Below are positions 2,772 to 60,084 of a stretch of DNA of 64,000 nucleotides, one piece after another (positions within the stretch are counted from its first letter, which is position 1; each line of letters opens with the position of its first letter). The stretch spans positions 6,675,001-6,739,000 of the forward strand of contig CP085629.1 in assembly GCA_024704175.1 (NCBI GenBank), read 5' to 3'. Position numbers and translations under genes: made by a program. This DNA is from Paenibacillus sp. P25. Lineage in GTDB: Bacteria; Bacillota; Bacilli; Paenibacillales; NBRC-103111. Below the pieces are notes generated by a model. The model was not told where the DNA came from. It ran no database searches and saw nothing but the letters and a program-made list of their open reading frames with translations.

Positions 2772-3096
2772 CACAGCGGGAGTCTACCCAGGATTGTATC
2801 ACAAAAACGGCCTGCTGTTAATCGGCGGGGAAAGAGAGGGGAGAAGTCAGGCTGATTTTGTAAGCGCAAACATTCGGCTTCGAACATCTTTCGACGTAAA
2901 CTGCGATTTATCCCTATTTTTCGAACATTTACGAAATCTTCATATGAGCATAACATTCAGAAAAAACTTCACGACTACAATGCAAATAAGCATAAATAAA
3001 CACAATTACGCAAAAGTGCTCGCTCGAACAGCATACTGCGAAAAAGGGGGCCGTGCGGCCGGAGCATCAACGTCATGACCCGTGAGGAGGATCACT
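2772..3096 (+). promoter_or_regulatory. AT-rich control region before ugpC with repeat motifs
   Basis: This 325-base stretch has no convincing gene. It contains GAGCATAACATT near 2946 and AAGCATAAATAAACACAATT near 2988. These resemble the repeats after the promoter of the DeoR-type gene (13 of 14 bases shared in the RCATAAATAAACA core). I infer an operator of the same regulator. No clear -35/-10 pair stands out. Confidence 0.4.
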
Positions 3097-4149
3097 TTGG
3101 CATCTATTGAATTTGTACAGGTTACGCAATCGTTCGGCAAGCATGTCATTATCAAAGACTTGAATTTGAAGATCGAGGACGGAAAGTTTACCGTGCTCGT
3201 CGGCCCGTCGGGCTGCGGCAAGACGACCCTGCTGCGGATGATCGCCGGGCTCGACCCGCAGACGTCGGGCTCGGTTCTGATCGACGGCAAGGATGTAACC
3301 CGCATTCCTCCGGGACAAAGAGGCGTGGCGATGGTTTTTCAGAACTACGCCATCTATCCTACCATGTCCGTCAGGGAGAACATCGAGTTTGGCCTCAAGA
3401 ACAATAAGGTGCCGAAAGAGGAGAGAAGCCGGCTGGTGGAAAGCATCAGCGCCACGGTCGGGCTGGCAGATTACCTGGACCGGAAGCCGTCGACATTATC
3501 CGGCGGGCAGCGGCAGCGTATTGCCCTGGCCCGGGCGATGGTGAAGAAGCCGTCCGTGTTTCTGATGGATGAGCCGCTGTCCAACCTCGATGCCAAGCTT
3601 AGGGTGCAGATGCGCATCGAGCTGATCGAAATGCATAAGAAGCTGGGCACGACTTTCGTCTACGTGACTCACGATCAGGTGGAGGCGATGTCCATGGCCG
3701 ATACGATCGTGCTGATGAATCAGGGGTGCATTCAGCAGGAGGCCGCTCCGGAGGTGATCTACCGGCGACCGAGCAATTTGTTTGCGGCCCAGTTTATCGG
3801 CGTTCCGCCGATGAATGTGGGCGAGCTCGGAGCGGACGGGGCGAAGTTCGGCTTTCGCCCGGAGAGCGCGGTGCTTACGAAGGAGCCCGGCGATTATCAC
3901 TATTCCGCACGCGGGACCATCGTCACCCGGGAGATGCTGGGAGCGGAGACGATTTATCAGGTAAGGACGGGCGGGCATGCTTTTATGATCAAGTGTACGG
4001 AGGACCTCTTCTCCGTAGACCAGGAGGTTTATGTCGGGGTAGACGCCGAGAAGCTCTTCTTCTTCGGAGCGGACGAGAACCGGGTCGACCGGAGCGATGC
4101 CCGTTACACCGATTACATGCGGGCGCTGAGGGGCGCAAGGGATGCGTAA
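3097..4149 (+). CDS. ugpC: ABC transporter ATP-binding protein, UgpC/MsmX type
   Basis: This is an intact 350-residue ATPase. It has Walker A GPSGCGKTT at residues 36-44, the Q-loop in VFQNYAIYP, the signature LSGGQRQR, Walker B VFLMDEP and a switch His in VTHDQ. A C-terminal OB/TOBE extension is typical of CUT1 sugar and glycerol-phosphate importers. The start is TTG 3097 behind GAGGAGG; an upstream in-frame GTG at 3082 lies inside that site. The gene overlaps the next permease by eight bases. It is the only importer ATPase in the window, so it may also power the ATPase-less importers at 9262-11038 and 19453-23098. That sharing is known for MsmX in Bacillus but only inferred here. Confidence 0.92.
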   Translation: MASIEFVQVTQSFGKHVIIKDLNLKIEDGKFTVLVGPSGCGKTTLLRMIAGLDPQTSGSVLIDGKDVTRIPPGQRGVAMVFQNYAIYPTMSVRENIEFGLKNNKVPKEERSRLVESISATVGLADYLDRKPSTLSGGQRQRIALARAMVKKPSVFLMDEPLSNLDAKLRVQMRIELIEMHKKLGTTFVYVTHDQVEAMSMADTIVLMNQGCIQQEAAPEVIYRRPSNLFAAQFIGVPPMNVGELGADGAKFGFRPESAVLTKEPGDYHYSARGTIVTREMLGAETIYQVRTGGHAFMIKCTEDLFSVDQEVYVGVDAEKLFFFGADENRVDRSDARYTDYMRALRGARDA

Positions 4150-5019
4150 CCGAAGCGTTTGGGAAGCGGTCCGTCCCTATGTGATGATCCTGCCCGCCAT
4201 GGCCGGCATTCTCCTGTTTGTCATCTATCCGGTGATTTACCTCATCAAACTCAGCTTTTACAAGTACAACCTGATGAACAAAGCGAAGAGCAAATTTATC
4301 GGGCTCGACAATTTCACCCAGATTTTCTCGCGGGAAGATTTCTACGGCGCGCTGGTCAATACGATCGTTTACACCGTCGGGGTGGTGGCGGCTACGATGA
4401 TCTTATCGTCGCTGATCGCCGTCTGGCTGAACCGGAAGAGCCGGTTCAACGCGGTGGTGCAAGCGGGCATCTTCACGCCGCATATCATTTCCATCGTCTC
4501 AGTCGCACTCGTGTGGATGTGGCTGATGGAACCGAGCCACGGCCTGCTGAACTTCCTGCTGAAGGCAGTCGGTCTGCCGACCTCCGATTGGCTGCAAAGC
4601 TCAAGCACCGCCATGATCTCCATCATTATCGTATCGGTATGGCAGAATATCGGCTATTTTACCTTGATTATCGTGGCTGCGCTCCAAAGCATTCCCCCAG
4701 CATCTACGAAGCGGCCGCACTCGATAACGCGAGCAAGTTCAAAGTGTTTTATAAGATTACCTTGCCGCTGATTTCGCCTCAGCTGTTTTTCATCTTGATT
4801 ATTATGACGATCGGCTCCTTCAAGGTGTTCGATACCGTGAAAATCATGACCGGCGGAGGCCCGAACGGCGCTACGACCACACTGGTGTATTACATTTACG
4901 AATTCAGGACCAACAGCATCGGCTACGCTTCCGCTACAGGCGTCGTGCTGATGGCGATCATCGCTCTTCTCACCTTCGTCTATTTCCGGTCGCTGGCTAA
5001 TAAGGTGCATTACCAATAA
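4142..5019 (+). CDS. ugpA: ABC transporter permease, UgpA/MalF type
   Basis: This CUT1 importer permease of about 292 residues has six membrane segments. The cytoplasmic EAA loop (EAAALDNASKFKVFYKITLP), which docks on the ATPase, is present near residue 195. A deletion of one C in the CCCCC run at 4694-4698 shifts the frame immediately before the EAA loop. The two halves join without loss if one C is restored. It lies between the ATPase and a second permease of the same operon. Confidence 0.88.
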
Positions 5020-5049
5020 CGCTGCAAACAACAAGGGGGTGTATAAGCG

Positions 5050-5883
5050 TTGGCGGCTTTGGAACTGCATTGGGTGAAACGAATACTGGGCTTCTTGCTG
5101 AAAGCCATCGTGCTGATGGTGTTCGTCACTCCGTTTCTATGGATGATCTCGACCTCGCTGCAGACGCTGCAGGAGACCCTGGCGTTTCCGCCCACGTGGA
5201 TTCCGTCGGTACCGCAGTGGGGCAATTTTACGGCGGCGATGAACGCAGGGCCGTTTCTGACCTATGCCAGGAACTCCTTCATCATTACGTTTTCCATCAT
5301 TATTTTGCAGCTTATCGTCATGATCCCGGCGGCCTACGCGTTTGCCAAATACCGGTTCGCCGGCAAAGAAATCTGCTTCAGCATGGTGCTGCTGGCGTTC
5401 ATGATCCCCGGGCAGGTGACGTTCATTCCCGTCTATCTCATGCTCGCGGACGCGGGGCTGATCAAGTCGCTCTTGCCCCAGATCATTCCGTTCATGTCGA
5501 ATGCCTTCGGGATCTTCCTTCTGCGCCAATATTTTATGCAGATCCCGCAGGAGATTATCGAATCCGCCAGGCTGGATAATGCGAGCGAGTTCAAGATTAT
5601 CCGCAAAATCATGATTCCGATGTCCATCCCGGCGCTCGCGACGATCGCGCTGTTCAGCTTCGTCAGCCATTGGAACGATTACTTCTGGCCGCTCGTGATG
5701 ACCGATTCGGCGTCCGTCCGGCCGCTGACGATGGGGATCGCCATGCTGCGGGAGACGGAAGGCATCAGCAACTGGCATATCATTATGGCCGGGAACGTGG
5801 TGCTCGTCGTTCCCATCCTGATCGTCTATCTCTTCGCTTCCAAGCAAATCGTCAGGGCGTTCGTTTATTCAGGGATTAAATAA
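5050..5883 (+). CDS. ugpE: ABC transporter permease, UgpE/MalG type
   Basis: This intact 277-residue permease starts at TTG 5050 after GGGGGTG. It has six predicted membrane segments and the EAA-type loop ESARLDNASEFKIIRKIMIP. With the preceding permease it forms the membrane channel of a CUT1 importer. The C terminus (KQIVRAFVYSGIK) is typical of the MalG/UgpE half. Confidence 0.9.
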   Translation: MAALELHWVKRILGFLLKAIVLMVFVTPFLWMISTSLQTLQETLAFPPTWIPSVPQWGNFTAAMNAGPFLTYARNSFIITFSIIILQLIVMIPAAYAFAKYRFAGKEICFSMVLLAFMIPGQVTFIPVYLMLADAGLIKSLLPQIIPFMSNAFGIFLLRQYFMQIPQEIIESARLDNASEFKIIRKIMIPMSIPALATIALFSFVSHWNDYFWPLVMTDSASVRPLTMGIAMLRETEGISNWHIIMAGNVVLVVPILIVYLFASKQIVRAFVYSGIK

Positions 5884-9157: not shown

Positions 9158-9199
9158 AACAGTCCGAGAATCGAATTCTTGGGCTGTTTTTGTTTTTTT
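9158..9199 (+). terminator. rho-independent terminator
   Basis: A 13-bp hairpin (AACAGTCCGAGAA with TTCTTGGGCTGTT, loop TCGAA) is followed by TTTTGTTTTTTT. It ends the ugp-like operon. Confidence 0.9.
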
Positions 9200-9261
9200 C
9201 TAAGCCGTTTCTAATTTTCGCATGTGAGAATGGGATTCAGAGGAAAGGAGGGAAGCGCTGT

Positions 9262-10132
9262 GTGCTGAGGCGTTTGGGCTTAAAGGAAGGATTCGCCGCA
9301 TTCTTGTTTTTGTTTCCCAGTCTGGCGGGCTTTGCCGTCTTCTTCCTGCTCCCGTTCGGGATGGGATTCTACTATTCACTGATGGACAGCCCGGTGGAAG
9401 GGTCCTTTGCCGGTTTGACGAATTACCGGGAGCCGCTGGCGAATCCCGTATTCCGCCGGGCGGCCGCCAATACCTTCCTGTTCACGGCGGTCAGCGTGCC
9501 GCTCAACATGCTGCTTTCGCTGGGGCTCGCCATGCTGCTTAACAGGAGGTCGCCGTTTCGCCAAATGTTCCGGATATCGTTCCTCAGTCCGCTTGCCGTA
9601 CCGGTAGCGTCGGTTGTGCTCGTCTGGAAAGCGATATTTGACCTCCATGGATCTCTCAACGGATGGCTCGAAGCTTGGGGGATCCATCCGAAGGATTGGA
9701 TGGAGAGCGGGGCGGCCATGTTCGTGGTCATTATCGTCTACCTGTGGAAAAATATCGGCTACAATATGGTGCTGTTTCTCGCGGGCCTGCAGAATATTCC
9801 GGCCGACTACTACGAAGCGGCGTCGATCGACGGAGCGGGCAAATTCAGACAGTGGCGGGCGATCACGCTGGTCTACCTGACCCCGACCGCATTCTTCGTC
9901 TTTATTATGTCGATCATCAATTCGTTTAAGGTGTTTCGGGAGACGTACCTGCTCGCCGGAGATTATCCGGATCCTAGCATTTACATGCTGCAGCATTACA
10001 TGAACAACCTGTTCAAGTCGCTCGATTATCAGAAGCTGACGTCGGTCGCCTTCCTCATGGCGCTGGTGATCGTGCTTGCTGGTCTGGATTCTGTTTCTGG
10101 CGGAGCGGCGCATCGGCAGGTCGCTGGAGTGA
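9262..10132 (+). CDS. carbohydrate-type ABC permease, MalF half
   Basis: This six-segment CUT1 permease has the EAA loop EAASIDGAGKFRQWRAITL. I start it at GTG 9262, ten bases after AAAGGAGGG. A frame break near 10078 hides the natural end; in the next frame the protein finishes LVWILFLAERRIGRSLE with a stop at 10130. Without that correction the reading frame runs on into the next permease, giving a false fusion. First gene of the locus; no ATPase gene is adjacent. Confidence 0.85.
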
Positions 10133-10164
10133 AGGCCGGTCCGTTCCCGGAAAGGAGGCTTCGG

Positions 10165-11038
10165 ATGAAAGCAAGCCGCATCGGCCGGAAGGCCGGACAA
10201 CTGGCGCTGGTTGCCGTACTTGCGGCAGGGATGGCGGGATTCCTCTTCCCGATTGTGCTGACGCTGGCCAATTCGTTTATGGCGGAAGCGGAGATTACGG
10301 CGAATTATGCCGCTCTTTCGGGAAGCGAAGACGCGGACGAGTATGTGAGCCTGAAATGGATTCCGGACCGCGCGACGTTATCGCAGTATTACGCCGTATT
10401 GGTCGGAAAACCTCAGTTCCTGTTCATGTTCTGGAATTCCGTGAAAATCACCGTGCCCATCATCGCGGGCCAAATCGCCGTCGCTTCGCTCGCCGCGTAC
10501 GCCTTCGCCCATCTGCGCTTTCGTTTTCGCGAGCCGCTCTTTTTCATGTACATCGTCACGATGCTGATGCCGTTTCAGGTGACGCTGGTACCGAATTTCA
10601 TTATGGCGGATCGGCTCGGGCCGCTCGGGTCGTACGGGTCCATCGTTTACCCCGGCGTCTTCAGTGCCTTCGGCGTGTTTCTGCTGCGACAGTTTATGAT
10701 GTTCGTACCCGCCAGCTATATCGAAGCGGCCCGGGTGGATGGGGCCGGCCATTTGTACATATTCGCAAGAATCGTCCTGCCGATGTGCGGCACAGGGGTG
10801 GCGGCGCTCTCCATCCTCGTCTTCATTGACAGCTGGAATATGGTCGAGCAGCCGCTGATCTTTCTGAAGGATGCGGCCAAACAGCCGCTGTCCGTCTATT
10901 TATCGGTCATCGGCGAAGAGGAGCGAGGCATCGCTTTTGCCGCTTCCGCGATTTATATCTTTGCCGCTCCTGCTCGTGGCATGGTACGCAGAAAAGGATT
11001 TGGTGGAGGGCATCCAGCTATCCGGAATCAAAGGGTAA
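10165..11038 (+). CDS. carbohydrate-type ABC permease, MalG half
   Basis: ATG 10165 follows AAAGGAGG. The protein has the MalG-type long periplasmic loop after the first membrane segment and the EAA loop EAARVDGAGHLYIFARIVLP. The frame breaks near 10963. The correct C terminus in the next frame reads AWYAEKDLVEGIQLSGIKG, the standard ending of this permease type, with a stop at 11036. It partners with the preceding permease. Confidence 0.86.
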
Positions 11039-11058
11039 TGCGGTAAGGAGGAATAGTA

Positions 11059-12205
11059 ATGAACACGGCGATTGCCGCAGACAGCGAACGGGCCGGAAAA
11101 AAAGCGATCAGGCGCGTCATCGCCGGGTTTTTCTTCGCGATGGTCGCACTGACGTTTTTTTCGAATACGTTACTGAACATTTCGCTGGCGGAGGTGGAGG
11201 TGGAAAAGCCTGCGTCCGGTCCTTTGTCGCATGAGGTCACCGGCTCGGGTACGATTCAGGCGGCGGACACGGCGGATTTGTACGTCGAGACGAATTGGCC
11301 GGCGAGCGACGTCAAAGTGAAAGTCGGCGATACGGTAGAGGCGGGCCAGGAGCTGGTCTTGTTTAAAACGCGGGATGCCGAGGATGCCCTGAAGGATAAT
11401 CAGGCGAAATGGCAGCAGAAGCAGCTCAGCCTGCAAAAGCTGCAGGACAGCTACGCCGACGCGTTCCGCAGCGGCGACGAGAAGCAGATGCGCAGCATTT
11501 CCCGCGACATCGACAGCACTCGGCTGGACGCAGAGATTCTGGAGCGGCAGATTGCCGGCCTGCAGCGGCGGCTCGCTGAGTTCTCGCGGCTCGTTTCTCC
11601 GGTTGCCGGTATCGTTACTGAGCTCAATGCCGCGAAGGGAGCGCCCGTTCCGAGTGGCAAAGCGGCGGTGCGCATCTCCGATTTATCCGAGGGGCTGGAG
11701 CTCAAGGCGACGATCCCGGAGACCAAGGCTCAATATGTGAAAGTGGGGGATGAAACGGAGCTGATCTTCTCCGTGCTGAAAAATGCGCGCGTCAAAGCGA
11801 CCATTGCCGATATCCGTGATCCCGTTTCGGGTTCGTCCGGATCATCCGGCTCCGCCGTCTCGTCGGGACAGGAAACAAAGGAAATTACCTTCTCTCTGCG
11901 GGATAACCGTTTGAAAGGGGGAGACGGGCGAATTCGATATCGTTCACAAAACGGATACGTTCGGGTCGCTGCTCCCTAACGATGCGGTCCGGGAAGATGA
12001 GATCGGGAAATATGTATGGGTTCTCAAAGAAAAGAAAGGGCCTCTCGGCACCGAGTACTTCGTGCAGCGGGCTTCCGTGCAGACCGGGGACGCGGACGAT
12101 AGCAAAACATCCATCGTAAGCGGCGTGACCCCGATCGATAAGGTGGTCGTCTCCAGCAGCAAATCCGTTGCGGACGGAGACCGGGTGGTGCTTAAGAGCG
12201 ATTGA
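11059..12205 (+). CDS. HlyD/RND-type efflux adaptor protein
   Basis: This membrane-anchored adaptor is about 382 residues. It has one N-terminal membrane segment (residues 18-37), a biotinyl-lipoyl-like beta domain (VKVGDTVEAGQELVLF), an alpha-helical coiled coil at roughly 105-180 and a return to the lipoyl half (SPVAGIVTELNAAKGAPV). Such proteins bridge MacB-type permeases to the outside. One G is missing from the GGGGG run near 11917; the C-terminal 90 residues continue in the next frame to the stop at 12203. It sits before a MacB-like gene, as in YknXYZ-type systems, but the ATPase is absent. Confidence 0.82.
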
Positions 12206-12233
12206 CGTTTCGCTGGAAAAGGAGGTGAAAGCC

Positions 12234-13636
12234 ATGCAGCGTTCCCGCTGGGCGGCTCCGATGGTGTTTGCCGGCGTGCTGCTGATACTGGCAAGTATCG
12301 GGTGGCTATCGTCGGTTCTGGCCGATTGGGAGCAGGCGAACGGTTCCCACCGCCTGCGGAAGCTGACGGCTACCGTTGACCGGTCCGTGACTGCGCCGGA
12401 GACGGCCGGCCTGACGCTGAAGGAGGCCGAGCAGCTCGCCGCCAAGTGGGCTCCCCTGCCCATTGCCTATTCAGCCAGGGTTCAAACCCGGGCGACGCTT
12501 GGCGGCGTATCGGCAAACTGCGAGGTGTTCGGCGTGAACGGAAGTTATCGCGATTTTACCGAAGTACGGCTGAAGACCGGTACCTCCTTCGCCCCTGCTT
12601 CCGTTGACGAGCACAGCCGGGTTGCCGTGATCGGCGCGAAGGTTGCGGATGAGCTGTTTCATTCGGAACGGGTCGCCGGAAAAACGATCAAGCTGTTCGG
12701 TGTCCCGTTTACGATCATCGGTGTCATGGACGATGAGGGCTCCCTGCTCCGGCAGATGGCGGATGACGGCATTCCCGATGTGCTGATCCCGGTTACCGCC
12801 TTGCTGGATCTGCGTCCGGAGGCGCGCATTGAAGGCATCCAGCTGGCGGCAAGGCCGAGTGCAGTGCTGCGCGGGGAAACGGATGCAGGCGATGTGCTTA
12901 GGGCCATCGGCAAAAATGCGGCGCATTTCCGGATCGAAAACCATCTGGTAACGCATATGCAAATAGGGCAGCTTCACTCGCTGCTGCTGTTCAGCTGCGG
13001 AATCATCGCCTTGTATTGGCTTACCTGCAGCATAGGCCGGCAATTCCTGGCGGTCCGCACGGTGCTGCAAGAGCGGCTTCATGCACTCGACTGGAACGAT
13101 GCGCTCCTCAGCGAGCGGCGCCTGCTCCTGAAATACGGCTTCGCTGCGGCCGCGCGGCGCCTGCGCGGGCGGGCTATGGTACGCTGATCCGGTTTCGCCC
13201 TTACCTTCCGCCGGATTGGGTGCCGGAGCAAATCATCGATATCCCGTTTTATATGGAGAAGCTGCGAAGCTTGTGGCAGCAGCAGGCCGCGCAGGAAGGC
13301 TACATCCCATCGCCGCAGGAGCCGCTCTCCAGCGCCGCCGGCCGGCTTGCCGGAAGGCTGTTTATTGCAGGAGCCTTGTTCGGCCTGCCCTCATTCCTGC
13401 TCGGCGTCCGTCTCTGGGCGGCTGACGGAATGCCTCTGGATCAGCGGCTGCAGCGGCTGTTTCTCTATATCCCCGCGGCCGCCATCGTCGCCTTCGCCGC
13501 CGCCCGCTGGGCGGGGATGAATTATTTGATTCATCTGCAAGAGTACGTAGTTCCGGGCATTTTATTTATCGCCGCGATGGTCCATTTTAACCATTCCAAA
13601 GGAGGAATTCTTCCCCATGCCGAAATGCGCAGCTAA
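12234..13636 (+). CDS. MacB-like membrane protein with periplasmic core domain, atypical C terminus
   Basis: ATG 12234 follows GGAGGTGAAAGCC. An N-terminal membrane segment is followed by an extracytoplasmic domain with MacB_PCD hallmarks (GVNGSYRDFTEVRLKTG, SRVAVIGAKVADELF, FGVPFTIIGVMDDEG). One membrane segment follows near residue 245 and at least two more near the C terminus. The final third does not look like a normal FtsX domain; the proline-rich PYLPPDWVPEQ stretch is unusual. A deletion near 13160 breaks the frame. The end overlaps the next gene by 20 bases, implying translational coupling. Confidence 0.65.
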
Positions 13637-15049
13637 ACATTCCGTTGTCGCCTGCTCCGTTCTCTCTCTTCTGGTTCTGTCTGCCTGTACGGGAAAAAAT
13701 CCGGCCAGCCCTGCCGCAAAAGAAGAAGGAGCCAACCGGTTGACCGGTTCGGAAACCAAGACCGTTACGCTGTCCGTGATGACGTCCGATCGCTTCCTTG
13801 AGGCGGCGAAACAAAAATTCGAAGCGACCCACCCGGGCATTCGAATCGAGATCAAGGAATATGCGGCTTCTCCGGCTCCGGTCGCCGGGGACAAAGGAAA
13901 GATCATCATGACCAATACGAAACCCGATCCTAAAAATATCGAAAAATACGTAAACACGGTTAGTGCGGAGCTGATGAGCGGCAAAGCCTCCGATCTCATC
14001 GTCGTAAGCGGTCTGCCTTATAAAAAATACGCCGATAAGAAGTCGCTGGAAAACATCGGGGATCTGATGAGCAAAGACGCCTCTTTCCAAATCGGCAATT
14101 ACTACACGGGCATGTTCGACGCGATGAAATATAACGGCGCCTTATATGCGGTTCCTGTCAAGGTGGGATTGAACTTATGGCTGGGGAACCAGGCCGCCAC
14201 TGGCAGCGAAAAGATCGACTACAGCAAGTGGACTTGGGAAGAATTCAAGAAACTGGCGGGGCAATGGGCAACGGATAAGAATAAGGACGGTAAGCCCGAT
14301 GTGTACCCCTTGGCCATATCGAATCCGATCAGCTGATCACTCTCATGCTGAACAGCGGCTTCGCCAAGTTTGTCGACCAGGGAGGGAAGAAGGCGAAGTT
14401 CGATTCTCCGGAATTTATCGGCATGCTGAAGCTGGCGAAATCGATGTACGACGACAAGATGATTCTTACCGGAAATGCGGACAGCGAGAATGTCGTGTTC
14501 GATCCGAGAGCGAACGTCCTCATGTACGCGGACTTATACACCCTGCCCAAGATTTTCTTTGGCGGAAAAGGGGCGTTTTACGATTTGCCGTCGGAGAATG
14601 AGACGAAAGGAACCGCCTTCACGGCTGCGATGCCGCTTGCGATGAGCAGCAAGTCTGCGAACAAGAAGGAGGCTTGGGAATTCATGAAGTTCCTCCTGTC
14701 GGACGAGATGCAGTCGGCCATCGAACTCGGCGGGTTTGCCGTCAACAAGAACGGCGCAAAGGCGCAGGAAGAGAGTTTGAGGCAGATCGGTACAGGTACG
14801 GGCGAGAAGAAAGGCAAAGGCATGAAAATGATGATCCAAGGCAAAGAGGCCGCGATGGAGCCTGCCACGGATCAGGATATCGCCATGATCGAGAAAATAT
14901 TGAACAATGTTAAGGTCTATGCGGAAAGCGACCCGAAAATTACGTCCATCGTTGCGGAAGAGACCGCTCCGTTCTTCCAGGGCAGGAAATCGGCGGAAGA
15001 AGTCGCCAAGGCGATTCAGAATAAGGCAAGCACCTATTTGCAGGAGTAA
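13617..15049 (+). CDS. extracellular solute-binding lipoprotein
   Basis: This binding protein is about 478 residues with lipobox LSAC near residue 23 and the family 1 sugar-binding pattern (TVTLSVMTSDRFLEAAKQKFEATHPGI, NGALYAVPVKVGLNLWLGN). One G appears to be missing near 14323, which creates an early stop; the rest continues from QLITLMLNSGFAKFVDQGG to the end. It presumably serves the MalF/MalG pair of the same operon. The ligand is unknown. Confidence 0.82.
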
Positions 15050-15055
15050 CCGGCT

Positions 15056-17173
15056 ATGAAACGTTCGGCATGGCATTTATCCGTCATTCTGCTCGCCGCC
15101 GTCCTGATCTTGGGCGCCGCCCGGCCGGGCTTTGCCGATGAACGAGCCGCCGCCTATGAGGGGGGAAGCCTCCCTCCTCTCGGGTCAGTTCAAATCGGGG
15201 ACGATAGTTATATGGAGCTGAAGGATCTGTATATTCTGCCCGACCATGGGGTGAAGAATGTCACCTTTACCGTATCCGTTCATAATAACGGCAGAGGCGA
15301 CCTGGTCTTTTTCGATTATTGGCTGCATCTGCTGACCGGATCCGGCGACTCGATATCCGTGAATATCCTTCCGCAGGATAAAGATAAACAGGTCATTGCG
15401 GCCCATACCTCCGAAGACATCGGCTTCTATGCGACCGTGAAGGAAGGGACGGACCTCTCCGGCCTCATTTTCCAATTTTTCAAGTGGGATTTCACCCAGC
15501 CGAATTATGAACGAACGTTGGGAGAAATCGCCGTGCCGGATACCTATTCCGTCGTTACCCCGGCCGGCGCTTCCCGCGAGGTCGTCATGACGGGGATACC
15601 GGTCAGCACGGACATCAAGAAGGTGCTCATGAATACAAACGAGAAATATCATAACGTAACAGTCGTCTACGAAATGACCAACGCCGGAGCCAAAAGTGTG
15701 GCGGTGCCTTCGTACCGGTTTGCGATCCGAACCACCGAAGGTTACATGTATCCGCTTAAGGCAAAGGATCTGAAGGATCTGACGATCGATCCTCAGGTGC
15801 ACAAGGAAATCGAGCTGACAGGCTCCGTACCGGTTACCGTCTCGTCTCATGGCTGGCAGCTTGTCGTCATTCAATATGAGGCCGACCTGAAGCTGAATCA
15901 GGCCGTCGCTTATTACGAGCTTCCGGCGGCATCCCGGGCGGAAGGCGGGGACATCGGCAAGGAGTATACCTTTACGGGCCAAGAGGGCATCTATACGGCG
16001 CAGATCGCCACCATCCACCGTCTGCCCTGGGAGGACCAGGATATCCTGGCGGCCGATGTAGTGCTTACGAATAAAGGTGTGGAGTCGCTTGCCTATTCCC
16101 AATTTGACGGGATACTATTCCTTGGATGAAGCGGTAAAGATCGAGGCGAAGCTGATCCCAACCGATGAATTGATCAGCCTGGTGCCGGGAGCGTCGGTCC
16201 ATTTTCAGTTCGTCGGCAGGTCGCCGTATTCGAATGACTTTTCCAAAGTGAAGCTCGTTCTGCAGGAGAAAGACAGCGACGGGAAAATGAACGATCTGCT
16301 CGAGTTTACGAACGGCGCCGGCATGTTGAACATCCCTTATAACAATGTCGGCGAATCTTATACCGTGCAGCACGTTGGACGCAGTTCGAGCTATAAGGTG
16401 CGGGACGTCCGGACCTACCGGGGAGACACAGGCGATACGCTAATGGCCGTATTGGAAGTAACCAACCTGGAGAAACGGTACATGGATGCGGCCAAGCTTG
16501 CGGCCAATTTCAAGACCCCGGCCGGCACCGTCTTTCCTGCGGCGGTCAGCTCGATCGACAGCAAGGTGAAGCCGGGCGGAAAAGCGCTCTTGTTCCTGAC
16601 GGCGACCATGCCGAAAGGTTACCCGATCTCGGATATGCAGGTCCTGATCGGCGAGGCGACTACGGACGGCAAGCTCTCGGCCAAGGAGGCCAAGCCGGAC
16701 GGGTATGTGAACGCTGCCGCATTCTGGCCGCCCCAGGAGGATTCCAAGGTCAAGGACGATTTGAAGGACGTCAATCTGACGCCTTATACCCTTTCGATTA
16801 ACCATATCGCTACGACATTAAAGCTCGGGGAGCTGAAGCTGACCTTCAACTATGAGCTTACCAAGGAGTCTGTGGAAACTAATACGGAGGGCCGCAAGCT
16901 GATTATCGGGTTTGAGGACGAGAAGGGGAATAAATCCTTTACGAGGGAATATGATTTCAAAGATTTCGAGGCGGCGAAGCCGTATGACATAACGAAGGAT
17001 ACCAAGCTGAGGCTGGGCAAAACCGAGGGTTTGAAATCAAGGAGACCGATCAGGAGCTCATTTTCAAGCTGGAGACGCTGAAGACCTACAAGCTTAGCAT
17101 TTACGACTCCTGGAACGGCCATAGCAGGTCGCTTGCGGCGAAGAATATCGATTGGTTCTTTACCACCGACTAG
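15056..17173 (+). CDS. large secreted protein of repeated beta-rich domains, function unknown
   Basis: The protein is about 705 residues with a signal peptide (cleavage near AARPGFADE). It contains at least three segments with similar layout: a TYSVVTPAG, YTFTGQEGIYTAQI or SYTVQHVGRSSSYKV strand, then a YEMTNAG, VVLTNKG or LEVTNLEK motif. That resembles DUF4352/immunoglobulin-like extracytoplasmic domains. Frame breaks lie near 16111 and 17030; the last 45 residues end in NIDWFFTTD. ATG 15056 follows AGGAG. Its operon position suggests a surface partner of the transporter and adaptor, but I cannot name a role. Confidence 0.6.
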
Positions 17174-17266
17174 CGAATTTTTCCAAATTTTAATCTGCGA
17201 TTCATCTTTCTCCTTTATAATGAGAATTCCAAAGAAGTTCGGGGAGGAACGGGGGAGGACAGCCCG

Positions 17267-17971
17267 ATGAAGATACTCGTGGTAGAGGATGACGTCCGTC
17301 TGCTTAAAACGATAAACACCCTGCTTCAGGAAGAAGGGTACAAGGTAGACTCGGCAGCTTGCGGCGATGAAGGCTGTTATATGGCCGAACAAGGCATCTA
17401 TGATCTGCTGCTTCTCGACCGGATGCTGCCGGGCATGGACGGGCTTAAAATCGTCCGAAGCGTCCGCGCCAAACAGATGCATACGCCGATTTTATTTCTG
17501 ACGGCCCGAGACAGCGTCGAAGATCGGGTGCAGGGGCTCGATACCGGAGCGGACGATTACATGACGAAGCCGTTCGAGGTGCCGGAGCTGCTCGCACGGG
17601 TTCGTGCTCTGCTGCGAAGACGGGGACCGGTCGAGAGCGAAGAAGTGCTTGCTTATCACCGGCTTCTTCTGAATTTAAGGACCAAGGAAGCTTCGATCGG
17701 CGGGGAGAGGCTGGAGCTTACGCAGAAGGAATTCGAGCTGCTGGAATATCTGCTGCGAAACCGGGAGCAAATCTTGACAAGGGATCAAATCTGTACCCGG
17801 GTATGGGGGCTGGAATCCGACGTCGGATCGAATATCGTCGATGTCTATGTGTTCTATCTGCGGAAAAAGTTAAAAGCCTTCGATTGCGAACATATCATTC
17901 AAACGGTCCGGAATGTCGGCTACCTGTTAAAGGAGAACGCACCATGTTTGGCAAGACCCGAATCCGGTTGA
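17267..17971 (+). CDS. OmpR-family response regulator
   Basis: This intact 234-residue protein has a receiver domain (EDD acidic pocket near 8-9, phospho-acceptor Asp in LLLLDRMLPG near 51, Thr in FLTARD, Lys in MTKPFEV) and a C-terminal winged helix (KEFELLEYLLRNREQILTRD). It overlaps the histidine kinase start by 28 bases, so the two are coupled. It starts 93 bases after the secreted-protein gene and probably responds to a wall or sugar signal handled by the upstream locus. Confidence 0.93.
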   Translation: MKILVVEDDVRLLKTINTLLQEEGYKVDSAACGDEGCYMAEQGIYDLLLLDRMLPGMDGLKIVRSVRAKQMHTPILFLTARDSVEDRVQGLDTGADDYMTKPFEVPELLARVRALLRRRGPVESEEVLAYHRLLLNLRTKEASIGGERLELTQKEFELLEYLLRNREQILTRDQICTRVWGLESDVGSNIVDVYVFYLRKKLKAFDCEHIIQTVRNVGYLLKENAPCLARPESG

Positions 17972-19325
17972 CGGCTCTCAACACGGCTGTGTTCTTTGTC
18001 ATTCTCGCCTGCCTTGGCGTGATCGTGTATACGGAGCTCCGTCACCAATTATACGCCAAGGTGGACGAATCGCTGCGGATGAGATTGCAGCAGGACTTGC
18101 CGCCTTTACAGACAAAGCTCGGACTATTTACAACAGGAGAACCTTCGGCCCTTCCTGAAGGCAGGTCTGCCAAAACGATAATTCACATTCAGGGGATCGA
18201 CCCGCGGATTTTTTTGGTATTCTGGGATGAGCAAGGAAATCCGTTTCCGACCCTGGCCGGGGCGGATTTGAGGAAGGCAATGGATGTCTTCAGGCCCTAT
18301 TTGTCGGTCCGAACACCGCAAACGATCAAGGTCGGCGGCCATTCCTACCGGATATATGCTGCCGACTACGACTCGTCGAAAGCGGTCAATTTGATGCTCG
18401 TGCCGGACTTACCCCGCTTCATGGAAGGGAGCGAGGACGCAGAACCTCCTGTCCTGACGGAAGCGCCCTCCCAAATCGTCTCGGTTCAGGCCATCGGCAT
18501 CGTCGATTCCGAGGAAAACATGCTGAAGCAGTTGTCCCGGTTAATTCTATTCGGCATTCTTGGCGGAGGAGCCGTCACGATACTAGCCGGGTATTATTTG
18601 GCGAACCGGGCGTCGCTGCCGATCCGCCGGTCATGGGAGCGGCAAAGCAGCAGTTCGTCGCCGACGCGTCGCATGAGCTGCGAATGCCGCTGTCGATCAT
18701 CCAGGCGAACACGGAACTGGTATTCCGCCATCCGGACCGCTCCATTCTCGAGATGAGTGAGCCGCTTTCTATGGTATTAGGCGAATCGAAGCGAATGGGA
18801 AAGCTGACGGAACAGTCGCTGACGCTCGCCCGGGCCGATTCCAATCAGGAAGAAATCGTCTTAAAGCCGATAACCCTGGAAGAAGTGATCCGGGAAGTGG
18901 TGCTTAAATTCAAACCGCTTGCGGAATTCAAAGGTCAGGTTCTGGAATTAAGGATGGAGAGCGGGCTTGACATCATGGGGGACCGCGAGCGGCTTCATCA
19001 GCCGCTGGTGATTCTAGTCGACAACAGCATGAAGTTTACGCCGGACAAAGGGACGATCCGGGTTCTGGCACATAGAACCGGTCACTATGTAGAGATTGTT
19101 GTAGAAGATACAGGATGCGGTATCGAACCTGAGGATTTGCCGCATATCTTCGACCGGTTTTACCGCGGCGATAAAGCGCGAAACCGCAGCAGCGGAGGAA
19201 CCGGCCTGGGTCTGGCTATTGCCCAATGGATTGCAGCCAAGCACGGGGGAGATTTAACCGCAGCAAGCATCCCCGGGTTAGGAACAACCATGACGCTTCG
19301 TTTGGCTGCGCGGCAGAAGAAGTGA
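17944..19325 (+). CDS. sensor histidine kinase
   Basis: The kinase is about 461 residues. It has a membrane segment at residues 10-30, an extracytoplasmic sensor region to about 190, a second membrane segment, then a HisKA domain (ASHELRMPLS with the phospho-His) and a HATPase domain (N box VDNSMKFTPD, G boxes DTGCGIEPEDLPHIF and GGTGLGLAI). One A is missing in the run near 18640 just before the His box. ATG 17944 follows AAAGGAG. It pairs with the preceding regulator. Confidence 0.9.
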
Positions 19326-19452: not shown

Positions 19453-20333
19453 TTACCCCTTTAATGCCCCTACCATAACACCCTTGACGAAATATTTCTG
19501 AACGAACGGGTAGATCACCAGGATCGGCACCGAAGCGACCATGATGGTAGCGTACTTGATCGTCTCGCCGATCTGGAAGCGGTCCGCGTTATCCGCCCCG
19601 GCGGACATGCTGTCCGTGGAGTTGGCGATCAGGATTTCGCGCAGCGTCAGCTGAAGCGGGAACAGATCGCGGTCCTTCAGGAAGACGGAAGCGTAGAACC
19701 AGCCGTTCCACTTTTCCACCGCATAGTAGAGGATCATAACGGCAATGACCGGCATCGACAGCGGCAGGATGATGCGGAACAGAATCACGAAGTGATTGGC
19801 TCCATCCATCTTCGCCGATTCCTCCAGGCTGTCCGGCACGCCCATGAAGGCGGTTCGCATAATGATCAGGTTGAACGTATTGACGGCGAAAGGAATGATG
19901 GTGGCCCACAGGGAGTTGATCAGGCCCACCCCTTTAACCACGAGGTAGAGGGGACCAACCCGCCGCTAAAAAACATCGTAAAGACGATAACGAAAATGAA
20001 CACCTTGTTCCACATCACGTTTTTGCGGGACAGCACGTACGCCCCCAGCGAGGTAAGGAGCAAGTTGATGATGACGCCGAAGACGACAATGAACAGCGTA
20101 TTCTTGTAGCCGATCAGAATGCCGGGATTGGCGAACACGCTTTTATAGGCTTCCAGGCTGAAGCCGAGCGGTCTGAGCAGGATCCCTTTGAAGCTGACGA
20201 GCTGCCCGGCATCGCTGATGGAGGCGAACGCTACATACAAGAGCGGATACAGGGTCACGATCATCAGGAACACCAGAAGGATATGGACGAACACGTCAAA
20301 GGCCGTATCCGCCAAGCCGTGGTCTCTTTTCAT
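19453..20333 (-). CDS. ABC sugar permease, LplC/YtcP type
   Basis: This permease is about 293 residues with six membrane segments and the EAA loop EESAKMDGANHFVILFRIILP. It ends in FVKGVMVGALKG, typical of the LplC half. One C is missing from a short C run near 19950, where GGLVPLYLVVKGVG should read continuously. ATG 20333 follows AGGAGG. It is the last gene of an Lpl-type importer operon. Confidence 0.88.
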
Positions 20334-20423
20334 GGAATTCTCCTCCTATGGGTATTGCGCGGCAATACCGGCTTCGCAAGCATTTTTGTAGAAAAAACGG
20401 CTTTATAAACGCTTTGGCTCTGC

Positions 20424-21386
20424 TTACCACAGACTGTTTTCGTTGACCTTGCGGCTGATCCGGTTGGCCGTAATGAGCAGAATCAGGTTGATGACCGAGT
20501 TGAACAAGCCGACAGCCGAGCTGTAGCTCCAACCGAATTCGAGCAGACCCTTCCGGTAGACGAAGGAGGAGATGACATCCGCCGTATCGTAGATCGACGG
20601 GTTGTAGAGCAGGATGATCTTCTCCCAGCCGACATTGAGCAGGTTCCCGACGCGCAGAATGAACATGATCGTGATCGTAGGTACGATGCCGGGCAGCGTG
20701 ATGTACCAGATCTGCTTCCAGCGGCTGGCCCCGTCCATACGGGCGGCCTCGTACTGCTCCTGATCGATGGACATGAGAGCTGCAATATAGATGATGGACT
20801 CCCAGCCGATTTTTTGCCAAATTTCAGATAAAATATAGATCGGACGGAACAGCTCCGGCTTCTGCAAGAGCGCCTTGCCGTCTCCGCCCAAATAGGTGAG
20901 AAGCGTATTGATGACGCCGCCGCTGTTCGTGAAATCTTTGATCATGCCGCAGATGACGACAAGGGAAATAAAATAAGGCATATAGGTGATGGACTGCGCC
21001 CATCGTTTGAAAACTTTGCTTCGAACCTCATTGATCAGAATCGCCAGGATAATGGGAGCGGGAAATTCAAAGCACAGCGAGTAGAGACTGATGATCACCG
21101 TATTTTTCAGGATTCTCCAAAAGTAATAAGTGCTGAAGAACGACTTGAAATTCTCAAGCCCCACCCAGTCGCTTCCCATAATGCCTTTCATCGGCGAGTA
21201 GTCTTTGAACGCAATGATCGCTCCGTACATGGGTGCGTAATGAAAAATCGCGTAGTAAGCAAGTACCGGAACCATCATTAGGTACAAATATTTGTTTAAA
21301 GCGAAGTCCCGGAGGAATCTCGGCAGGAATGCGTTCTTATTCACCTGGGCCTTAGCGGCGGTTTCCATCGTAATTGTTTTAGCCAT
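20424..21386 (-). CDS. ABC sugar permease, LplB type
   Basis: This intact 320-residue permease has a cytoplasmic N terminus, six membrane segments and the EAA-type loop QYEAARMDGASRWKQIWYITLP. The IFHYAPMYGAIIAFKDYSP stretch near residue 45 is characteristic of LplB permeases. The start follows GGAGG. It lies between the binding protein and the LplC-type permease; no ATPase is encoded nearby. Confidence 0.92.
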   Translation of the reverse strand: MAKTITMETAAKAQVNKNAFLPRFLRDFALNKYLYLMMVPVLAYYAIFHYAPMYGAIIAFKDYSPMKGIMGSDWVGLENFKSFFSTYYFWRILKNTVIISLYSLCFEFPAPIILAILINEVRSKVFKRWAQSITYMPYFISLVVICGMIKDFTNSGGVINTLLTYLGGDGKALLQKPELFRPIYILSEIWQKIGWESIIYIAALMSIDQEQYEAARMDGASRWKQIWYITLPGIVPTITIMFILRVGNLLNVGWEKIILLYNPSIYDTADVISSFVYRKGLLEFGWSYSSAVGLFNSVINLILLITANRISRKVNENSLW

Positions 21387-31063: not shown

Positions 31064-31075
31064 AAGAAGTGTGTC

Positions 31076-31190
31076 CCCTTCCGGTGCCTACGAGGTTAGC
31101 TTAAGGGTTCGGTTGAAGGTTCCCTATGATCACTCTGAAGCGAGATCAATTCACCCAAAAATTGGATCCCCGTTTTCCGCGAGCGGAAAT
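31076..31190 (-). ncRNA. ydaO/yuaA-type c-di-AMP riboswitch
   Basis: On the minus strand the leader contains the hallmark pieces in order: CGGGGATCCAAT, TTGGGTGAATTGATC, AGGGAACCTTCAACCGAACCC and AGCTAACCTCGTAGGC. These match the ydaO riboswitch core from memory, including the near-invariant GCTAACCTCGTA. It ends about 13 bases before the hydrolase start. In the known class, c-di-AMP binding turns the downstream gene off. Confidence 0.88.
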
Positions 31191-31259
31191 TCGGCAAATT
31201 TTTCTTATTTTTTTGAACGATAAGATATATTCGCGAATAACCACACTTTTCCTCCCCTT

Positions 31260-59813: not shown

Positions 59814-60084
59814 ATGCCGTGCTAGACGGGGAGGTAGCGGTGCCCTGTAACCCGCAATCCGCTGTAGCGGGGTTGAACGCCTATGAGCGGTATGGCGATG
59901 TAAGGTTTGGGTTTTAAAGTCGGTGTTGAGAGCCGGGTCCTCCGCAATGGATGCCTGTGAACCCGGTCAGGTCCGGAAGGAAGCGACCGTAAGCAGGATG
60001 TTTCATGTGCCGGAGGGCGACCTAGCTTGAGTCGACGATAAAAATTCCACTTGGATCGCCCTATCAATATAGGTGCACGGTTTT
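59814..60084 (+). ncRNA. ffs: signal recognition particle RNA, large Bacillus type
   Basis: The conserved 5' domain GTGCTAGACGGGGAGGTAGC, then GGTGCCCTGTAACC, marks the Alu-like part. The Ffh-binding helix contains GGTCAGGTCCGGAAGGAAGC and ATGTGCCGGAGGGCG. The 3' end GGTGCACGG closes the 5' end. Length is about 270 bases, as in the Bacillus scRNA. The 3' limit is approximate. Confidence 0.95.

Follow-up and report, generated by a model that had tools for sequence, protein, structure and literature searches.

We analyzed an operon of Paenibacillus sp. P25 that lies at positions 9262 to 19325 of a 64,000-nucleotide stretch of DNA, hereafter called the window (GenBank assembly GCA_024704175.1, contig CP085629.1, positions 6,675,001 to 6,739,000 of the forward strand). 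An earlier note on this DNA had read the locus as a head-to-tail set of MalF- and MalG-type permeases, an HlyD-type adaptor, a MacB-like protein, a binding lipoprotein, and a large secreted protein, followed by a response regulator and a histidine kinase. All of these genes were indeed present at their assigned places, as listed below with a repeat upstream of the first gene; the intact reference relative used for comparison, L004, is Paenibacillus piri (same genome as G094).

9198..9215, + strand: tandem direct repeat TTCTAA-N5-TTCTAAT with an 11-bp period, likely the operator of the neighboring OmpR-type regulator; the window has no second match
9262..10132, + strand: MalF-type (CUT1) permease; BPD_transp_1 at 3.3e-15; 83% identity to L004; frame broken after about 10053
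10165..11038, + strand: MalG-type (CUT1) permease; BPD_transp_1 at 6e-11; 82% identity to L004; frame broken near 10960
11059..12205, + strand: HlyD/MacA-type membrane-anchored adaptor with an LTFFSNT signature; frame broken near 11920
12234..13636, + strand: MacB-derived membrane protein with MacB_PCD; in relatives, coupling motifs absent and outer loop between transmembrane helices 3 and 4 (TM3-TM4) conserved; frame broken between 13133 and 13184
13617..15049, + strand: extracellular solute-binding lipoprotein (SBP), sharing 20 bp with the MacB-like gene; frame broken near 14306-14327
15056..17173, + strand: large secreted protein, with five tandem beta-sandwich domains in the model of a relative; frame breaks at about 16100 and 17030
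17267..17971, + strand: OmpR-type response regulator, intact; 81% identity to L004
17944..19325, + strand: sensor histidine kinase; frame broken near 18645

Pfam assigned BPD_transp_1 (twice), HlyD_D23/HlyD_3, MacB_PCD, and SBP_bac_1 to the operon. Comparison with L004 by tblastn located eight frame breaks, which spared the response regulator gene alone. Seven appeared as paired segments (MalG, HlyD, MacB-like protein, SBP, secreted protein twice, and kinase), and the eighth, in MalF, as a match to L004 that ends at residue 264 of 289. Since the UgpA-like gene upstream of the operon is likewise broken and the completeness of the genome, a single 8.48 Mb contig, is as low as 84.5%, these breaks are likely assembly errors and not true lesions. 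The odd C terminus of the MacB-like protein was ruled out as a frameshift artefact, because the intact relatives are alike.

Distribution of the gene set and its ATPase

A profile search for the MacB-like protein over 392 genomes of the order Paenibacillales returned 34 matches at E ≤ 1e-20. Twenty-four of them, the window genome included, scored 2e-50 or better; the remaining 10 were weaker, with open frames of about 400 residues, and the three of these that were fetched (L091-L093) each adjoin an ATPase gene of their own. The comparison was then based on 22 intact cassette loci, namely L004, L039-L054 (16, window's family), and L086-L090 (five, second family), with L055 excluded for a contig that stops within the MacB-like gene. 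The order MalF-MalG-HlyD-MacB-like was kept in all 22, and an SBP gene was present in 21, the contig of L049 stopping before it; in L046 the SBP is split into two pieces. Even the exact 20-base overlap of the MacB-like and SBP genes recurred in 8 of the 22 loci as called, one of them from the second family. A histidine kinase gene adjoins every cassette, and the regulator was matched in 21. The gene order is thus shared by two families rather than peculiar to one strain. A homologue of the secreted protein was found in 12 of the 22 loci.

The permease family reaches considerably further than the MacB-like gene. With the cassette MalF as query, 160 of the 392 genomes matched at E ≤ 1e-50, far above the number that carry the MacB-like gene. 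Forty loci without a MacB-like match were taken from the matches listed (20 mostly higher-ranking, 20 lower), and in all 40 of them MalF, MalG, and HlyD were contiguous with an adjoining SBP gene. The constant unit therefore consists of the importer permeases, the HlyD adaptor, and the SBP, and the MacB-like protein is a feature of a subset. A kinase gene lay near these loci, with at most two open reading frames (ORFs) between, in 14/20 of the first set and 16/20 of the second (30/40 overall). In a tree of MalF plus MalG, the first 20 loci formed one clade (support 99).

Among genomes drawn from the class, the MacB-like profile matched the window alone (1/398), and the matches of the MalF search were the window plus seven further Paenibacillales genomes (8/329). 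A MalF search of 329 genomes drawn from the phylum gave five matches other than its own (L163-L167), all outside the order and all with MalF, MalG, HlyD, and a MacB-like protein; MacB_PCD was confirmed by Pfam in the four that were scanned. A restriction of the cassette to Paenibacillales was accordingly dropped.

Taken together, MalF/MalG and the HlyD adaptor occurred side by side in 67/67 family loci examined, the permeases being of the CUT1 type and not of an exporter in each case, and the SBP gene adjoined the permeases or the adaptor in 66, the exception being L049, whose contig ends first. The few other CUT1 pairs in the fetched flanks (window about 4250-5880 and 19456-21200; L054, L087, L140) had no HlyD gene beside them. 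The second of the two window pairs, MalG/MalF-like and on the opposite strand (19456-21200, -), follows directly past the kinase gene. As for the EAA loop, both permeases have it in all 22 cassette loci; across 47 aligned loci its glutamate is kept in both proteins, and its glycine in 46/47 MalF (L167 excepted) and 47/47 MalG. Outside the cassette set, ETA or a similar sequence stands in place of EAA in many MalF, and the strict pattern EAAxxDGA was positive there in just 4/20 and 2/5.

The observation that the operon has no ATPase gene stood up: neither the window operon nor that of any of the 62 Paenibacillales loci (22+20+20) contains an ORF that matches the UgpC reference (E ≤ 1e-4), a result that rules out a deletion in the window strain alone. 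In L054, an ORF matching the same reference lies on the same strand about 4 kb past the operon end. Outside the order, however, four of the five operons contain a MalK/UgpC-type ATPase gene, 42-53% identical to the window UgpC, and in L163 and L164 it stands exactly between the MacB-like and SBP genes; the L163 protein exceeds the NCBIfam UgpC cut-off and has MalK OB and TOBE domains. Relatives with an ATPase gene at this position, which the earlier note had named as telling against its proposal, thus do exist outside the order, and the ATPase-free state is probably, as judged from these operons, a derived loss common to all Paenibacillales loci checked.

A MalK/MsmX-type ATPase is encoded elsewhere in 23/23 cassette genomes, including that of the window, with best hits 52-59% identical to the L163 ATPase. 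In 22 of the 23 genomes (G026 excepted), no MalF/MalG match lies within about 1.5 kb of the best one, and one tested example matched Bacillus subtilis MsmX (6yir) at 8e-146. According to an excerpt of PMC7658222, MsmX serves a number of sugar importers whose own genes include no ATPase, and import operons of this kind are ordinary in Firmicutes. An MsmX-type ATPase without neighboring permeases seems the more likely motor than the ugp-linked UgpC (3082-4149), which was dropped as a dedicated partner because its own MalF/MalG-like permeases and binding protein stand directly behind it. In these respects the operon resembles MsmX-using CUT1 importers such as AraNPQ-MsmX of Bacillus subtilis, which likewise combine MalF/MalG permeases bearing EAA loops with an SBP lipoprotein and have an MsmX-type ATPase gene elsewhere and none in the operon. 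It differs from them in that every family locus examined has an HlyD/MacA adaptor and that an OmpR-type regulator is present; a sub-lineage adds a MacB-derived membrane protein, and a secreted beta-domain protein is frequent.

Adaptor, MacB-derived protein, and extracellular components

The adaptor has the features of the HlyD type, namely an N-terminal membrane anchor and barrel-sandwich and HlyD domains; TIGR01730 covers nearly its whole length, although the score of 90.4 bits stays below the cut-off of 94.9. At its membrane exit we found a signature close to LTFFSNT, which was matched with at most three mismatches in 47/47 loci, as compared with 1/7 canonical adaptors, two of whose starts (L093, L094) may be wrong, and 3-5% of shuffles. 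Because the signature holds also where the MacB-like protein is absent, the membrane partner of HlyD is probably MalF/MalG rather than the MacB-like protein.

The latter exceeds the Pfam cut-off for MacB_PCD (PF12704). An AlphaFold2 model built with 16 relatives reached a predicted local distance difference test score (pLDDT) of 83.7, and its best solved match was a Streptococcus MacB-type permease (5xu1_S, Z 18.2, root-mean-square deviation (rmsd) 6.7 over 319 residues), with MacB and LolCDE also among the best; 5gko_A gave Z 16.7 and rmsd 5.3 over 335. In the model, the MacB/type VII fold is kept. The motif of the major coupling helix (TM2-TM3) and the C-terminal minor coupling motif (P..ALR/P.DAL, last 60 residues) were each found in 0/27 MacB-like proteins and in 7/7 canonical permeases, with expressions composed post hoc. 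An excerpt of PMC5985334 describes the TM2-TM3 coupling helix and the C-terminal segment as ATPase contacts. No MacB-type ATPase gene was present in the operon of the 22 MacB-like-bearing Paenibacillales loci. The proposal that the protein lacks a clear FtsX end is therefore borne out at the sequence level, in intact relatives too, but not at the level of the predicted fold, which is MacB/LolCDE-like over the full length.

The best conserved part of the MacB-like protein is the outer TM3-TM4 loop (0.62 against a mean of 0.53), and the least conserved is the cytoplasmic TM2-TM3 loop (0.46). The pattern of the outer loop recurs in L163 and L164; in L165-L167, three of the five loci outside the order, hydropathy revealed only a TM-periplasmic core domain-TM arrangement. 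As both coupling motifs are gone and the outer loop is the best conserved part, the sequences suit a dock or scaffold rather than a transporter that an ATPase of its own would drive. The outer loop also bears on the idea that the operon is an ordinary MsmX-dependent sugar importer accompanied by decaying exporter remnants. Such an idea could draw on the frameshifted window copy and on the excerpted statement in PMC7658222 that ATPase-less import operons are ordinary; we nevertheless hold it to be highly improbable, as HlyD and the MacB-like protein appear as open frames conserved in many genomes, and the outer loop of the latter is conserved above the protein mean.

A further possibility is outward work, in which HlyD and the MacB-like domain would receive the MalK/MsmX-driven cycle of MalFG and use it to move or reshape something beyond the membrane; the SBP would then be a substrate or a regulator. 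The retention of MacB_PCD along with the loss of the ATPase-coupling motifs would fit it, and extracytoplasmic work by MacB-type systems is described in the excerpt of PMC5985334. The SBP gene beside the permeases or adaptor in nearly every locus points instead to import, and we consider outward work very unlikely. In comparison with YknXYZ and SpMacAB-type exporters, the operon shares the HlyD-type adaptor and the MacB periplasmic core domain and fold, and relatives of its secreted protein are encoded behind operons of this kind in L057 and L058; unlike them, it has no MacB-type ATPase in the operon, no coupling motifs, an extra outer loop and C-terminal helices, and a tie to importer permeases and an SBP.

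The SBP is of the carbohydrate type, with an SBP_bac_1 domain and CbpC 7x0o, Lmo0181, 4r6k, and YesO as the nearest solved chains. A Pfam scan of the genes neighboring the cassettes gave no common enzyme that would point to a substrate. Two or three tandem SBP paralogues per cassette were observed in L087 (4553-9027), L088 (6117-9198), and L090 (10955-15955), which suggests several ligands for one adaptor-importer core. Beside the MalFG-HlyD operons of L165 (10589-12973) and L166 (6311-8719) are binding proteins of about 800 aa in which an extra N-terminal region is fused to the SBP domain, that of L166 giving a weak PQQ/propeller-like match.

For the secreted protein, the L004 homologue was modeled as tandem beta-sandwich domains (pLDDT 82.5), five as judged by the strand pattern. 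In the structure search, only 5bxg, an uncharacterised beta-sandwich from Clostridium, exceeded Z 10 (Z 10.8, rmsd 3.5 over 120); the further matches, mostly antibody Ig domains near Z 8, were taken as common fold only. The L004 protein is 49% identical to the homologue behind the canonical ATPase-MacB operon of L057, and the ten other cassette homologues were 65% (L040), 48% (L046), and 30-39% (other eight) identical to it. Only L040 is thus nearer to it than the L057 homologue, and the protein seems to move between importer-linked and exporter-linked operons, and its occurrence behind both kinds suggests that it might be a partner of the adaptor. In L087 (15999-19892), a surface protein of 1298 aa that carries F5/8 type C and Big_2 domains is encoded upstream of the two-component system, and ORFs of like size are found at the equivalent site in L088 and L090 (1297 and at least 1237 aa).

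Regulation of the operon

The repeat TTCTAA-N5-TTCTAAT upstream of MalF had no match in 100 shuffles, and a GAGAAT about 10 bp downstream of it may be a -10 element. With at most one mismatch, the repeat was found upstream of MalF in 12/12 loci with the same regulator type (L004, L039-L049) and in 0/10 loci whose two-component system is of a different type (L050-L054, L086-L090). The pattern had been derived from the window and ten of the 12 loci, and the two unused ones, L046 and L049, both match with one mismatch. When two mismatches were allowed, stray hits appeared; in L087, for example, one lies some 250 bp upstream of MalF. An 11-base repeat period is typical of OmpR-type regulators, and the sequence pattern makes it likely that the repeat is the operator for the adjacent one.

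An alternative is a sensing device, in which the importer, adaptor, and MacB-like protein act as a sensor of ligand or flux that signals to the histidine kinase, transport being secondary, as in Bce-type modules. Those modules consist of ABC-type (ATP-binding cassette) membrane proteins beside a two-component system and are in this respect likened to the present locus; unlike them, it has no ATPase-coupled FtsX permease, and its permeases are importer-type. The kinase gene adjoining every MacB-like-bearing cassette and most of the loci without it, as well as the regulator-matched repeat, would be in line with a sensor. On the other hand, the type of two-component system has been swapped between lineages, the response regulators of L051-L054 and L086-L090 being only 32-39% identical, and no such system was noted next to 10/40 loci without the MacB-like gene. 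Simple regulation fits better, and we regard a sensor as unlikely.

A possible composite importer

Since MalF/MalG and HlyD stay together in all the loci examined, one composite system is favored, as the earlier note had suggested when it spoke of a possible single machine and not two transporters; the widely kept gene order agrees with that proposal, and the ATPase within four of the five operons outside the order speaks in part against it. On balance, we think it reasonably probable that the operon encodes one CUT1-type importer, powered by MsmX/MalK, to which a MacA/HlyD adaptor and a MacB-derived dock uncoupled from any ATPase have been added. MalF, MalG, and the binding lipoprotein would form the importer, which a MalK/MsmX-type ATPase from another locus would power. 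The adaptor would sit on the outer side of the importer, and the MacB-derived protein, in the sub-lineage that has it, would couple to no ATPase and provide a passive dock or scaffold on which the adaptor rests. In the wall zone, the adaptor would probably be extended or capped by the secreted beta-domain protein. The neighboring OmpR-type two-component system would switch the operon via the repeat upstream of malF, and the imported ligand would be a carbohydrate or derived from the cell wall. We infer the physical assembly, the substrate, and the direction of transport of this composite importer from sequence.

Several points weigh against it. Genes that share one operon need not encode products that assemble together, and the 67-locus counts come from relatives chosen by MacB-like or MalF similarity, not randomly. 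The first, stricter HlyD pattern was found in 10/22 loci with the MacB-like gene, 6/20 without it, 5/5 outside the order, and 0/7 canonical adaptors, and among the later 20 loci 14 were within three mismatches of the signature and six had four. The MacB-like-bearing Paenibacillales cluster weakly in the MalF plus MalG tree (support 63), so that either loss or gain of the MacB-like gene would fit. ABC-ATPase-like ORFs lie on the same strand close to the operon in L195, L202, and L206, and L167, which has no MalK-type gene, encodes an ABC ATPase (25% identical to UgpC) together with a membrane protein of 731 aa immediately upstream of MalF (9596-13587). Finally, in L056 and L092, which were picked for carrying MacB, a full canonical HlyD-ATPase-MacB exporter is encoded close to a CUT1 importer.

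Separate transporters thus do cluster, as L056 and L092 show, and together with the ABC ATPases near L167, L195, L202, and L206 these loci keep alive the explanation that two transporters, an MsmX-driven sugar importer and a MacAB-like exporter with its ATPase in trans, merely share one operon and regulator. The relatives of the secreted protein behind canonical exporters could likewise be read in its favor. We consider this explanation decidedly unlikely, however, for the MacB-like proteins have lost both coupling motifs and in three of the five outside loci also TM3-TM4, HlyD stays with MalFG in every one of the 40 loci without a MacB-like match, and the ATPase found in four of the outside operons is of the MalK/UgpC type. 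Among the canonical exporter loci, L093 (4764-12750) carries an operon of two-component system, ATPase, and MacB followed by a DUF4352 protein, with a regulator 52% identical to the cassette regulator; an operon of this type is a possible source of cassette parts.

The chances are about even that the composite importer represents a new ABC uptake architecture in Bacillota, in which a MalK/MsmX-powered importer works via an outer adaptor of the MacA/HlyD type, docked in some cases on a MacB relative without ATPase, and brings a ligand that is large or bound to the wall through the Gram-positive wall zone. A targeted full-text literature search, judged by titles and abstract openings and with most subscription journals outside its coverage, found no publication describing CUT1 permeases with an HlyD adaptor. 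The papers drawn on were PMC7658222, PMC5985334, PMC4446572, and PMC11466899; the passages of PMC4446572 concern export systems, and PMC5985334 points out that Gram-positive HlyD/MacA adaptors have no outer membrane to reach and treats their role as an open question. Were the proposed architecture true, adaptors would serve uptake as well, and the operon family would offer a clean genetic system in which to test it. The labeling of such genes as efflux adaptors, or of such loci as an incomplete importer plus an incomplete exporter, is probably wrong.

Elsewhere in the window, a cyclic di-AMP (c-di-AMP) riboswitch was located at 31070-31206 (-), and a large signal recognition particle (SRP) RNA at 59817-60080 (+).

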